In this document: piece after piece, positions 31,780-35,286 of the stretch
How positions within the stretch are numbered: the stretch's first letter is position 1
How the letters are laid out: each line of letters begins with the position of its first letter
Origin: Aquificaceae bacterium
GTDB lineage: Bacteria > Aquificota > Aquificia > Aquificales > Aquificaceae
DNA length: 43,198 nt
Assembly (NCBI GenBank): GCA_025056375.1
Contig: JANWWH010000007.1
Location: 1 to 43,198 of the forward strand
Direction of reading: 5' to 3'
Made by a program: the position numbers and the translations under genes
Notes under the pieces: generated by a model
What the model was told of the DNA's origin: nothing
Databases searched by the model: none
Seen by the model: only the letters and a program-made list of their open reading frames with translations

Positions 31780-33036
31780 TTAACTGAAGAGGTCCCTCCA
31801 TAGCCCCCTCGCCCATTCTTCGTATCTCTTTGCGGTGCTTTCCTTCCTTTGATTGTCTTCTCTGTAGGTGGGTATAAACCTTTTGCTTACCGTGTCATAC
31901 CTAAAAGCTGTTTCCGCCATTATAGCCTCTTTATCGCTTACCATAGCGTAGCAAATCATCTGTAGGTATTCCTCTTTAACTTCCTTACCCTTTATCCTTG
32001 CGTTTATTATCTTTGCAACCAGTTTACCCTCTGAGTGTGCTGCGTATCCGCTCTTAGGTAGGTAGCTTTGAGAAGCATCACCTATCACAAAAACGTTTTT
32101 AACTGAAGTTTCAAAGGTTAGTGGGTTCACTTCTACCCACTTCTGACCTCTTTTCAGAAGCCCAGCTTCTTCTAATAGTTTGCTTGCCTTCATGGGCGGT
32201 ATTATGTTAGCAATTTCATACTTAAAGTCCCCGTGGGAGGTTCTTACAACCTTCTTCTGAACATCTATGTCTCTGACCTGGGCAGAAGTTATATAGGTAG
32301 CCACATCCCTATAAAGGTCATAGTATGCGGAGAGAAAGCCTTCAGAGTTTATTATCGGTCTCTCGTTGGCGTCTATAAAATACATATGAGCTTTCAGTTT
32401 GTTCCTCTTTATCATGCTGGCTATGAGTGCAGCACGCTCATAGGGTGCAGGTGGGCATCTGAAAGGTGGGGTCGGCACGCTTATAACAATATCCCCACCC
32501 TCAAAATCCTCAATCAGCCTTTTTAGGTATATGTGTTCGGAGCCAGGCTTGAAGGCTGGTGGGTTGTAAATTAGTGAATCTCTGTAAAAAGGTTTGTCTT
32601 CGATGTCGTAGTCTATGCCGGGTGATAGCACGAGGTAGTCGTAGGCTATGTAGCCGGAGGAGGTCCTTACAACTTTTTTGTCAAGCTCCACTCCGAGAAC
32701 CTTATCGTTTATCATCCTTACACCGTGTTTGACCTCTAACACATTGTAGGAAAAGCAGAGGGAGGAGAGCTCCATGAGACCAGCAAGGAAATGGTTGGAC
32801 ATGGGACAGGACATGAAGAAGGGTCTCTCTTCAATAAGCACCACGTCAAGGTTTGGGTTTTCTCTTTTAAGGTATTTGGCGGTAGTTACACCACCGTAGC
32901 CACCACCTACTACTACTACCTGAGCCTTCTGCCTTTTTTGAGGTGCTGAGTAGGCTAAAAGGGGCGCACTAAGGCCTACCGCTACGACACCAGATAAAAG
33001 CTCCCTCCTGTTAACACCTAACCACTGCTTGGACAT
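31780..33036 (-). CDS. FCSD flavoprotein-like FAD oxidoreductase, paralog 2 (Tat-exported)
   Basis: A 418-residue periplasmic flavoprotein of the flavocytochrome c sulfide dehydrogenase (FccB/SoxF) type. Tat motif NRRELLSG (9-16) precedes a hydrophobic stretch. FAD-binding motif VVVGGGYGGV (41-50), then LIEERPFFMSCPMSN, where C77 sits where FccB attaches FAD covalently. C194 (FRCPPAPYERA) and C362 (ICYAMV) correspond to the likely redox disulfide. ATG at 33036 is preferred because GGAGGTGG lies 8 nt upstream. It overlaps the Rieske gene by 26 nt. Sulfide is the expected substrate by family but is unproven. Confidence 0.85.
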   Translation of the reverse strand: MSKQWLGVNRRELLSGVVAVGLSAPLLAYSAPQKRQKAQVVVVGGGYGGVTTAKYLKRENPNLDVVLIEERPFFMSCPMSNHFLAGLMELSSLCFSYNVLEVKHGVRMINDKVLGVELDKKVVRTSSGYIAYDYLVLSPGIDYDIEDKPFYRDSLIYNPPAFKPGSEHIYLKRLIEDFEGGDIVISVPTPPFRCPPAPYERAALIASMIKRNKLKAHMYFIDANERPIINSEGFLSAYYDLYRDVATYITSAQVRDIDVQKKVVRTSHGDFKYEIANIIPPMKASKLLEEAGLLKRGQKWVEVNPLTFETSVKNVFVIGDASQSYLPKSGYAAHSEGKLVAKIINARIKGKEVKEEYLQMICYAMVSDKEAIMAETAFRYDTVSKRFIPTYREDNQRKESTAKRYEEWARGLWRDLFS

Positions 33037-33730
33037 ATTTATCCACCTCCATAACAATGCATTTATCTACAAGTTCTCTGGCTTTTGCGGTAGAGCCATA
33101 CTGTTGTCTTAGTTCAGTTCTGAAGTTGTCAAAGAACTGTTGAAACTGGTCTTTTCCGAGTACACCTGTTGCGAAAAATCTTCCTCCCTCTTCCTGTAAT
33201 ACTATGGAGGCAAGGGGAAAGTCTGCAGGACCGTCTATCACGCTACCACCCTGTTTTGGGTCGTAGAGGGCAAGGTGGGCACAGCACTGGATTATGCCGG
33301 CTTTTTTTGTGGTCTCGGATGGCTTGTCAGGTGGGTAGTAGTTTATAAAGGAATACTGGGGTGTGGGGTAGCTCCATTGGTGGGCGCATATGGCGGAGTA
33401 AGAAACTATGCTCTTCTTTGCACCCACGCCCCCCATCCATCGGTAACTTTTCCCGTCCTTGAGTTTTATCTCGGCGGGTGGAACGGTTTCTCCAAGGTTT
33501 ATCAGATAGCAGGGCGTGGCGTTATGAGGGTAGAAGAATATGTAGTTAACCTGAGGCTTTATGTCTTCTTCTTTTAGGGGGGTGCCGTCCGACTTCACGA
33601 GTAGAGCCTTTTTGTATGCTTGAAACATGCCATCCTGTTGCTGGGCAAGCACTTGAGAAAAGAGAGAAGGGTCTATAAAGGAAGCCACTGCCACCGTTCC
33701 GCACGTTTTTATAAAACCTCTCCTGTCCAT
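33011..33730 (-). CDS. Rieske [2Fe-2S] protein, Tat-exported
   Basis: A 239-residue protein. Tat signal DRRGFIKT (2-9) with a short hydrophobic region that may be cleaved or act as an anchor. Rieske cluster ligands are C115 and H117 (ICAHQWS) and C149 and H152 (CCAHLALYDPKQGG). The disulfide cysteines of bc1-type Rieske proteins are replaced by S120 and A151, as in the low-potential/arsenite-oxidase-like branch. It lies between the two FCSD-like genes and is translationally coupled to the downstream one, so it is probably their electron acceptor or a subunit. No cytochrome b or molybdoenzyme gene is nearby. SD is AGGTGAGGT. Confidence 0.87.
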   Translation of the reverse strand: MDRRGFIKTCGTVAVASFIDPSLFSQVLAQQQDGMFQAYKKALLVKSDGTPLKEEDIKPQVNYIFFYPHNATPCYLINLGETVPPAEIKLKDGKSYRWMGGVGAKKSIVSYSAICAHQWSYPTPQYSFINYYPPDKPSETTKKAGIIQCCAHLALYDPKQGGSVIDGPADFPLASIVLQEEGGRFFATGVLGKDQFQQFFDNFRTELRQQYGSTAKARELVDKCIVMEVDKYVQAVVRC

Positions 33731-33749
33731 GTCTTTACCTCACCTATTT

Positions 33750-33779
33750 ATTTTAAAACCTTTTAGCCTTTAAATGCAA
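33750..33779 (-). promoter_or_regulatory. Weak promoter candidate upstream of the Rieske gene
   Basis: On the minus strand TTGCAT (33779-33774), 18 bp, TAAAAT (33755-33750), with an SD just before the ATG at 33730. Together with the hairpin after the preceding gene this suggests some independent transcription. Confidence 0.35.
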
Positions 33780-33860
33780 ACTTTGTGCCACGAAGAGAGA
33801 CTTGTGAAAGTTTAAAGTGGTAGTCTGCAAACTGTTTTTTGATGCATCGTGTGTTGCAAA

Positions 33861-33878
33861 GGGGAGGGATACCTCCCC
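33861..33878 (-). terminator. Hairpin after FCSD-like paralog 1
   Basis: GGGGAGG/CCTCCCC, 7 bp with a 4-base loop, starts 8 bp beyond the gene's stop. Only TTTGC follows on the minus strand, so it may attenuate transcription or stabilise the mRNA end rather than terminate fully. On the plus strand it is followed by a T-rich run but no plus-strand gene is upstream. Confidence 0.45.
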
Positions 33879-33886
33879 TTCTTTTC

Positions 33887-35221
33887 TTATGCAAACATGT
33901 CCCTGTACATAGCCCTTGCCCATTCGTAGGTGGACTTTGCCAGAGCCTCTGACCTGTCGTTGATGGTTCTCGCTCTTGGCGTTATCTTGTTTTCCTTCTC
34001 GTTGTATTCGTAGTTAACGCTTATGACTATGGCTTCCTGAGGTGTGCCGTTTACCATGGAGTAGCAGACGTTCTCTGGCATAAGGCTTCCTGGCTTTATC
34101 TCTCTGCCCGCTATTCTTGAGGCTATGACCTTTGCTACTACCTTGCCCTGAGAGTTTGCCTGATGACCGCTCTTTGGATAAGCTACGCCGAGAGCAGGAG
34201 AAATGACATCACCGAGGAGGAACACATTAGCATCCGCCTTTGCTTGGAAGGTGAGTGGGTCCTGGTCTGCCCAACCGGTGGGTTTTCCTTCCTTGTCTTT
34301 GGCTATAAGGTCTGCCATCCAAACCAGCTCACCCGCCTGCTGGGGTGGTATGATGTTGGCGTCCGCGAACTTAAAGTCCCCTGCCGTGGTCTTTATAACT
34401 TTCTTCATGGGGTCTATCTCTCTTATAGAAGCCTTGGTGACCACCTCTACTATGCCCAAGTAGACCTGGTCGTAAGCCATCCTAAAGCCCGGACCCTTGG
34501 GTGCTATATCATCTTTGGGGTCAAGGATTACGACCCTTCCCTTTACCTTGTTCCTCTTGAAGACCTCTGCTACCATGCAAGCCCTTTCGTAAGGTGCGGG
34601 TGGACACCTGTAAGCACCCGGTGGCACGGTTATAACAAAGTCGCCCTCTTCAAACTCCCATATCTTTCTCTTAAGCGCCAAGTGCTCGGACCCGGGTATG
34701 TAGGCAGGTGGATAGTTTAACTTCGTGTACCTTATGAGCTCCTGATTGTCCCCGAACCAAGGTGCGTAGTTATACCTTATGCCGGGCGCAAGCACGAGGT
34801 AGTTGTATTCCACATATCCTCTGGTTGTATAAACCCTCCTCTTATCTCTTTCTATAGCTATAACCTTATCGTTTACAAACCTGTAGCCATACTTGGCTGC
34901 AGGCTGGTTGTAGTCGTGAGATATGAAATCAAGGTTCACCAAGTTTGCAAGCCACGGGTTAGATATGGGGCAGGAGAAAAAGTTTGGTCTCTGTTCTATC
35001 AGGACCACCTCTATGTTGGGGTTTTCCCTCCTGAGATACTTTGCTACTGTAAGTCCTGCCCATCCACCACCGCACACTACTACACGGTTTCCCTTTGGTG
35101 GTGGCATAAAAGCCTCCATTTTGACTATCCTCTCTGCGGCTGCAAATACAGGCTGAGACGAAAGCCCCAGGGCTACTGCCCCTACTCCTGCGGACTTCAG
35201 AAGGTCACGCCTTGTAACCAT
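33887..35221 (-). CDS. FCSD flavoprotein-like FAD oxidoreductase, paralog 1 (Tat-exported)
   Basis: A 444-residue paralog of the flavoprotein at 31780-33036. Tat motif TRRDLLKS (3-10) and a cleavable signal to about residue 28. The FAD motif is VVVCGGGWAGLTVAKYL (47-63); C84 (FFSCPISN) matches the FccB covalent FAD cysteine; C206 (YRCPPAPYERA) and C386 (NVCYSMV) match the redox pair. The C-terminus (TYEWARAMYRDMF) is shared with paralog 2. SD is AAGGGAGGT. It is the first gene of the cluster and is divergent from ilvB. FCSD oxidises sulfide and passes electrons to a cytochrome c subunit, but no such gene is present here. Confidence 0.88.
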   Translation of the reverse strand: MVTRRDLLKSAGVGAVALGLSSQPVFAAAERIVKMEAFMPPPKGNRVVVCGGGWAGLTVAKYLRRENPNIEVVLIEQRPNFFSCPISNPWLANLVNLDFISHDYNQPAAKYGYRFVNDKVIAIERDKRRVYTTRGYVEYNYLVLAPGIRYNYAPWFGDNQELIRYTKLNYPPAYIPGSEHLALKRKIWEFEEGDFVITVPPGAYRCPPAPYERACMVAEVFKRNKVKGRVVILDPKDDIAPKGPGFRMAYDQVYLGIVEVVTKASIREIDPMKKVIKTTAGDFKFADANIIPPQQAGELVWMADLIAKDKEGKPTGWADQDPLTFQAKADANVFLLGDVISPALGVAYPKSGHQANSQGKVVAKVIASRIAGREIKPGSLMPENVCYSMVNGTPQEAIVISVNYEYNEKENKITPRARTINDRSEALAKSTYEWARAMYRDMFA

Positions 35222-35256: not shown

Positions 35257-35286
35257 ACTATAAATCCATGCAGGACTTGCAGTCAA
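35257..35286 (-). promoter_or_regulatory. Promoter of the flavoprotein/Rieske cluster
   Basis: On the minus strand TTGACT (35286-35281), 18 bp, TATAGT (35262-35257): five of six matches in each hexamer. The predicted start near 35250 gives a leader of about 29 nt with a strong SD. Confidence 0.7.

Follow-up and report, generated by a model that had tools for sequence, protein, structure and literature searches.

A contig stretch of 43,198 nucleotides from an Aquificaceae bacterium (GenBank assembly GCA_025056375.1, contig JANWWH010000007.1, positions 1 to 43,198; 'the window' hereafter denotes this whole stretch) contains a run of three genes, all on the minus strand, that encode two flavoproteins of the flavocytochrome c sulfide dehydrogenase (FCSD) type and, between them, a Rieske iron-sulfur protein. 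Flavoprotein A (33887..35221; 444 amino acids) is followed by the Rieske protein, R (33011..33730; 239 amino acids), and by flavoprotein B, a paralogue of A (31780..33036; 418 amino acids from the ATG at 33036, which was taken as the start, the listed open reading frame (ORF) running on to a TTG at 33057). The reading frames of R and B overlap by 26 nucleotides (33011..33036, minus strand). All three proteins carry a twin-arginine (RR) motif, namely, TRRDLLK in A, DRRGFIK in R and NRRELLS in B, the latter two being read by eye; among the three, A alone passes the Tat model TIGR01409 (20.5 bits versus a cut-off of 16.7), and A is under the cut-off of the Pfam Tat model (19.1 versus 22.7 bits). 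On the strand of the trio, no CXXCH-containing ORF of at least 60 amino acids lies within approximately 600 nucleotides of it. A preliminary description, made from the sequence alone, had reported three genes at these positions and in one direction, the 26-nucleotide overlap, twin-arginine signals in all three products, and the combination of two FCSD-type flavoproteins and an exported Rieske protein with no FccA cytochrome nearby; each of these observations is confirmed, with the Tat model adding its weight for A only. The genome comprises 1.34 Mb in 82 contigs and is 94.5% complete.

A and B, which share 43% identity, belong to the FccB sequence family. Both exceed the cut-off (27 bits) of the Pfam domain FCSD_central, with 96.4 and 85 bits, respectively, and the best structure matches of both are solved FCSD flavoproteins. 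The flavin-attachment cysteine and the redox disulfide pair align in both proteins (C84, and C206 with C386, in A), and the three cysteines are present in 94 of the 95 flavoproteins compared, the exception being a frameshifted copy in one genome (G054). Where the classical FccAB (PDB 1fcd, 3vrd and 5n1t) has a cytochrome, the window has a Rieske gene, A and B being without an adjoining FccA-like cytochrome gene; the C-terminal domain of A and B has diverged in sequence from that of FccB. Against the cut-off of 26 bits for the FCSD C-terminal domain PF09242, A scores 35.8 and B 24.8 bits. The SoxF flavoprotein of the Sox clusters (Paracoccus and Chlorobaculum, as cited in PMC3504083) is also of the FCSD type and also has no cytochrome subunit of its own. 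The difference lies in the C terminus, which is of the FccB type in the Paracoccus pantotrophus protein taken as SoxF. This identity is presumed, the record of the protein carrying no annotation; the protein serves as the outgroup of the flavoprotein tree, so its placement tests nothing.

R has the two Rieske ligand boxes, C-x-H and C-C-x-H, 31 residues apart: C115-A-H117 (33380..33388, minus strand) and C149-C150-A-H152 (33275..33286, minus strand), each pattern being found in all 59 family members examined. R scores under the cut-off of the Pfam Rieske model PF00355 (12.3 versus 20.3 bits); all 22 members of the family that were scanned match this model at E<=1 (best, 1.9e-05). The profile of the R family finds the SoxF Rieske protein of Sulfolobus (1jm1; E 3.2e-13) and AioB (E 1e-11), and the nearest NCBIfam model is SoxL2 of the Sulfolobales (TIGR03171), with 86.5 bits for a cut-off of 582.1, compared with 39.5 bits for a cut-off of 95.65 in the case of the AioB model. 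These three are the nearest Rieske families by profile, but R remains far below the SoxL2 and AioB cut-offs and, in contrast to all three, extends about 45 residues past the Rieske-matching part and ends in a conserved cysteine. The last residue is cysteine in 57 of 59 family members, the remaining two rows being cut short, and an alignment of 22 R proteins shows three invariant cysteines: C10, within the signal; C150, next to a ligand; and the terminal C239. Judged by these model scores, R represents a Rieske family for which neither Pfam nor NCBIfam has a dedicated model. In Sulfolobus acidocaldarius, a control genome, FCSD_central is above the cut-off, and relatives of this archaeon also have SoxL2. 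A plasmid search with R returned eight records at 22–32% identity, of which six are annotated as arsenite-oxidase-type small subunits and two are unannotated.

Two conventional assignments of R were rejected. R is below the cut-off for AioB, the small subunit of arsenite oxidase, and no ORF of more than 600 amino acids, as a large molybdenum subunit would require, lies within 7 kb. In Rieske proteins of bc1 complexes, the genes of which accompany those for cytochromes b and c1, both boxes contain an extra cysteine, and the two form a disulfide; box I of R (CAHQWS) is without the second cysteine, and a separate bc-type gene set is located on another contig of the same genome (C6). The pair of residues after the second box varies within the family, with Ser/Phe in 39 of the 59 proteins, Ala/Tyr in 13, Gly/Tyr in five, and Thr/Phe and Ser/Tyr in one each; 58 of the 59 keep exactly one of the two positions as Ser/Thr or Tyr. 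These residues are, we assume, hydrogen-bond donors to the cluster. Swaps of this kind tune the Rieske potential, and those found here would suit an intermediate potential; this hint is not used as evidence because just one or two independent changes are involved.

Among 136 genomes of the phylum Aquificota, R and an FCSD flavoprotein co-occur with no exception seen. R, counted at >100 bits, is present in 61 genomes in both the single-sequence search (62 genomes before removal of G101, at 18.8 bits) and the profile search (64 genomes before removal of G030, G068 and G101, all below 30 bits). An FCSD flavoprotein match that counts as strong (best E < 1e-25) is found in the same 61 genomes and in none of the other 75; the flavoprotein search listed 115 genomes, and matches weaker than this threshold were dropped. 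FCSD_central is over its cut-off in 59 of the 136 genomes, all within the 61 that encode R, and the two R-encoding genomes under the cut-off contain a flavoprotein fragment (G047, 65% complete) and debris of both genes (G026), respectively. The two genes are also missing together, in all five genomes of genus g5 and in six genomes (G002, G006, G053, G055, G098 and G101) from genera that otherwise have them (g2, g8 and g20; the two g8 genomes among the six are 70% and 87% complete).

The flavoproteins fall into four clades in a quick tree of 91 sequences and four outside references, in which branches are long and the deep joins unsure. Clade A (39 rows and one Paracoccus protein) and clade A' (15 rows) are encoded upstream of R, clade B (33 rows) is encoded downstream of R, and clade F (four rows), which stands apart from A, A' and B, is encoded upstream of R in four genomes of family f2. 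The Paracoccus protein is inside clade A in this tree and outside it, by row counts, in a second quick tree.

In the neighborhood set, which consists of 60 stretches of up to 12.7 kb, with reading frames called, and the window, an FCSD flavoprotein of at least 330 amino acids is encoded directly upstream of R in 57 of the 61 loci. The exceptions are G020, G102, G026 (broken) and G047 (where the contig starts inside R). In G102 (L092 3612-5906, reverse-complemented), the A' gene is split by an ORF that by eye resembles a transposase, and intact Rieske and B genes follow. In G020 (L091 725-3082, reverse-complemented), the Rieske gene is located near genes for a PAS-sensor-like protein and a response-regulator-like protein, neighbors that hint at regulation of the flavoprotein-Rieske module. 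Outside the genus of the window, none of seven other window neighbors tested is found near R, except for argJ in some loci; therefore, the adjacency of the flavoprotein and R is not just a consequence of shared local gene order. Moreover, the type of the upstream flavoprotein switches at least nine times on the Rieske tree (change counts here and below are for the best tree, weak branches included), yet R keeps a flavoprotein neighbor. The two genes also decay jointly: G026 has broken copies of A and R alike, and G054 has a frameshifted A together with an R interrupted by a stop, an assembly error being possible in this 87% complete draft. A contig pattern scan with the R sequence of the window alone, which together with the plasmid search covered DNA beyond the phylum, yielded six loci, five from Aquificaceae and one from Thermocrinis. 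The flavoprotein and R form the core of a module, and their pairing is well supported by genomics. The linkage of the two is tight across the phylum. The preliminary description would have been refuted by three genes that are rarely neighbors in relatives; this is not the case for the upstream flavoprotein and R, but is in part for B.

Of the 56 loci that could be assessed for B, 38 have it and 18 do not, which amounts to at least 11 changes on the Rieske tree. Two of the 61 loci (G026 and G041) have no usable R, which leaves 59, and three of these are not assessable; the count scores G054, with its B remnants, as absent and G004 and G015, where B is on another contig, as present. Broken copies of B (G051 and G007) and the remnants in G054 fit repeated loss, and neither G050 nor G052, both assembled as a single contig, has a listed match as strong as a B orthologue. 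Near R, 33 B proteins with 330 or more amino acids are encoded, all of them downstream of it. Of 33 loci measured, 20 show the 26-nucleotide overlap, as do up to five further ones, including the window, where the script chose an earlier in-frame start. The translation of B is probably coupled to that of R, given the overlap. The gap between A and R contains a GC hairpin with a 9-bp stem (33859..33880, minus strand). Such hairpins are found in 19 of the 26 A-R gaps examined, their stem sequences differing between relatives, compared with 0.02 expected in shuffles that preserve base composition alone; gaps shorter than 40 nucleotides are omitted from this count, as are L076, L080, L086 and L087, in which a frameshift or the choice of start distorts the gap. 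The hairpin of the window is listed as terminator-like on the plus strand, a type of site that numbers 5 versus 5.1 in shuffles. Upstream of A, a promoter-like TTGACT-18-TATAGT (35257..35286, minus strand) has 10 of 12 consensus matches; such sites are no more than consensus matches, with 5 in the region versus 3.9 in shuffles.

The preliminary description had envisaged a heterotrimer of A, R and B with two flavins. The A-R-B gene order, the wide sharing of the R/B overlap and the uniformly downstream position of B would all be expected of such a complex, but a fixed heterotrimer is unlikely because B is missing from 18 of the 56 loci, including those of the two single-contig genomes, after at least 11 changes on the tree, and because a hairpin separates A from R. 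As an obligate assembly, it has to be considered highly improbable.

The further proposal that the Rieske protein replaces the cytochrome turned out to be too simple. In four genomes, R and B follow a clade F flavoprotein, which is of the FccB type, and in three of these four loci (L099, L104 and L105), an FccA-like cytochrome gene ends 23 nucleotides upstream of the flavoprotein gene, the fourth locus being truncated at the end of its contig. No locus but these three has an FccA-like gene directly upstream; the other CXXCH genes are soxX-like genes after six family f2 loci and one ORF in G007 judged spurious by eye. According to PMC12010331, the C-terminal domain of flavocytochrome c binds the electron acceptor. 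A, A' and B end in an EWA..MYRDMF-like stretch and are without the longer FccB tail. In the C-terminal domain, B and clade F are 17% identical, compared with 33–42% elsewhere in these proteins, whereas clade F and a Paracoccus FccB share 53% identity in this domain.

From this genomic evidence, we lean slightly towards the view that Aquificota possess a periplasmic sulfide-oxidizing module in which FCSD flavoproteins of a distinct group work with a soluble Rieske protein dedicated to them. Flavoprotein A (and B where present) would oxidize sulfide, or sulfane sulfur such as that carried on SoxYZ, via its disulfide and flavin adenine dinucleotide (FAD), and would pass electrons singly to the Rieske cluster. 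R would dock at the C-terminal domain of the flavoprotein, where FccA sits in the classical FCSD, and would hand the electrons to cytochrome c and, through it, to a terminal oxidase and oxygen. B, a second flavoprotein and an optional one, would share this Rieske partner and be translated with it. The docking of R, the direction of electron flow and the substrate we infer. Five Cytochrom_C matches are found in the genome of the window, so the cell has electron acceptors for R. Alongside the module, the same cell would use the sulfide:quinone oxidoreductase (SQR), which delivers electrons to quinone: in the genome of the window, contig C6 (L148 4979-8791) carries an SQR-like gene divergent from a set of bc-type Rieske, cytochrome b and CXXCH genes (the latter two read by eye), and this is the ordinary sulfide-to-quinone route beside the module.

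Several observations weigh against this module. The genomes are related, so there are far fewer than 61 independent events. In G020, no flavoprotein gene is found in the 3.2 kb assembled upstream of R, and B alone is present, downstream. From the hairpin in the gap, A and R are probably made in unequal amounts. The C-terminal domain is the most divergent part in other comparisons too, namely, between A and B (37% against 43–52%) and between A and the A-like protein of Paracoccus (30%, with 45–48% elsewhere), and the C-terminal signal therefore seems to be in part general variability. Structure prediction, for which the alignments comprised sequences of the window and related loci only and were shallow, gave no usable model of R alone (seven rows; mean predicted local distance difference test score (pLDDT) 37.3, predicted template modeling score (pTM) 0.34) and no usable interface in the A-R read-through chain of L034 (12 rows; pLDDT 44.7, pTM 0.44). 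The two A-like flavoproteins found on plasmids, both from outside the phylum, have no Rieske neighbor. Copies of A' in six genomes and of A in two stand away from any R, the same genomes also carrying a flavoprotein-R pair elsewhere. Finally, recombinant DhsU1, encoded in a published relative of the locus, is a monomer that oxidized sulfide with horse heart cytochrome c, which it reduces alone (PMC3504083). Each of the six lone A' genes (L139-L144) adjoins a gene that, by eye, encodes a PAS-sensor-like protein; a full-length response regulator is encoded beside five of them, and a CxxCxxC iron-sulfur protein beside four of the six.

The monomeric activity of DhsU1 and the eight genomes with lone copies are what would be expected if the flavoproteins were monomeric sulfide dehydrogenases that directly reduce soluble cytochrome c, with R serving another donor and the operon shared for regulation only. 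We consider this quite unlikely. An unrelated protein would not be expected to co-occur so completely with the flavoproteins and to decay together with them. The cysteines 53, 173 and 344 of DhsU1 (PMC3504083) are separated by spacings of 120 and 291, a combination shared by just two of the 92 flavoproteins measured, those of G097 and G100, which belong to clade F. This places DhsU1 most likely in the cytochrome-linked clade F, expressed in that work without its cytochrome, and makes it weak evidence on A, A' and B.

The same source describes the gene order dhsU1-Rieske-dhsU2 in an uncultured relative of Sulfurihydrogenibium, the large sausage-shaped bacterium, where the genes are preceded by a cytochrome-like gene and followed by sox genes; its text has the word 'Rieske' twice, in each case to state the gene order, and assigns the protein no role. 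This locus resembles that of the window in gene order, in belonging to Aquificota, in the Tat-type signal and in one flavoprotein with sulfide dehydrogenase activity there, and differs in the preceding cytochrome-like gene, the following sox genes and the clade F-like DhsU1. A follow-up study (PMC4912159) reports in situ transcripts of sulfide-oxidation genes, the genes tested including dhsU1 and dhsU2. A full-text literature search yielded no biochemical work on A, A' or B and no treatment of a Rieske-FCSD pairing as a functional unit. The conserved arrangement is real, and its gene order has been in print once (PMC3504083); accordingly, the system is fairly called little-described, as in the preliminary description, but not undescribed.

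The main rival of the proposed sulfide-oxidizing module is a role linked to Sox, in which the flavoproteins would act on sulfur carried by SoxYZ, and R would be the electron outlet of that step rather than of the oxidation of free sulfide. Action on such SoxYZ-carried sulfur is ascribed to SoxF, and the gene neighborhoods go some way in this direction: the best plasmid match of A adjoins soxY and soxZ in Paracoccus alcaliphilus, the second adjoins soxC and a cytochrome c gene in Allomeiothermus, SoxY is encoded within about 4 kb of R in all seven family f2 loci, and a soxX-like CXXCH gene is within 600 nucleotides in six of these seven, as described in PMC3504083. The Paracoccus alcaliphilus plasmid (L131 7378-12158) encodes, in this order, a c-type cytochrome, an FccB-type flavoprotein, YeeE/YedE, the A-like flavoprotein, SoxY and SoxZ. 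Of the 61 R-encoding genomes, 58 have SoxY over the cut-off, and in the genome of the window, SoxY is encoded (contig C12) beside genes that by eye are soxZ-, soxA-, soxX- and soxB-like. However, 27 of the 75 genomes that lack R likewise have SoxY over the cut-off, which shows that Sox can do without the module, and the window locus is not beside the sox genes, which are on another contig with SoxY. On balance, a role tied to SoxYZ is unlikely.

If the flavoproteins and R indeed operate as a sulfide-oxidizing module, they may amount to an unrecognized class of sulfide dehydrogenases ('flavo-Rieske'), a suggestion that we make tentatively and hold at somewhat less than even. In this class, an FAD- and disulfide-containing subunit would donate electrons to a Rieske protein of intermediate potential, the C-terminal domain would differ because it docks a Rieske protein and not a cytochrome, and one Rieske protein would accept several types of flavoproteins; the class would be widespread in Aquificaceae. 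The comparison with DhsU1 has a bearing of its own: the enzyme of the assay was likely of the cytochrome-linked type, and the published 'monomeric' form may thus have been assayed without its natural cytochrome subunit, which makes that study, the single biochemical one found for this group, worth re-reading. Aquificota are prominent in sulfidic hot springs, and the routes for electrons from sulfide besides SQR are little studied in them. Direct transfer of electrons from a flavin sulfide dehydrogenase to a Rieske protein would combine two long-known redox components in a new way; it would give a function to a Rieske family that has no Pfam or NCBIfam model and would let electrons from sulfide reach cytochrome c while bypassing bc1.

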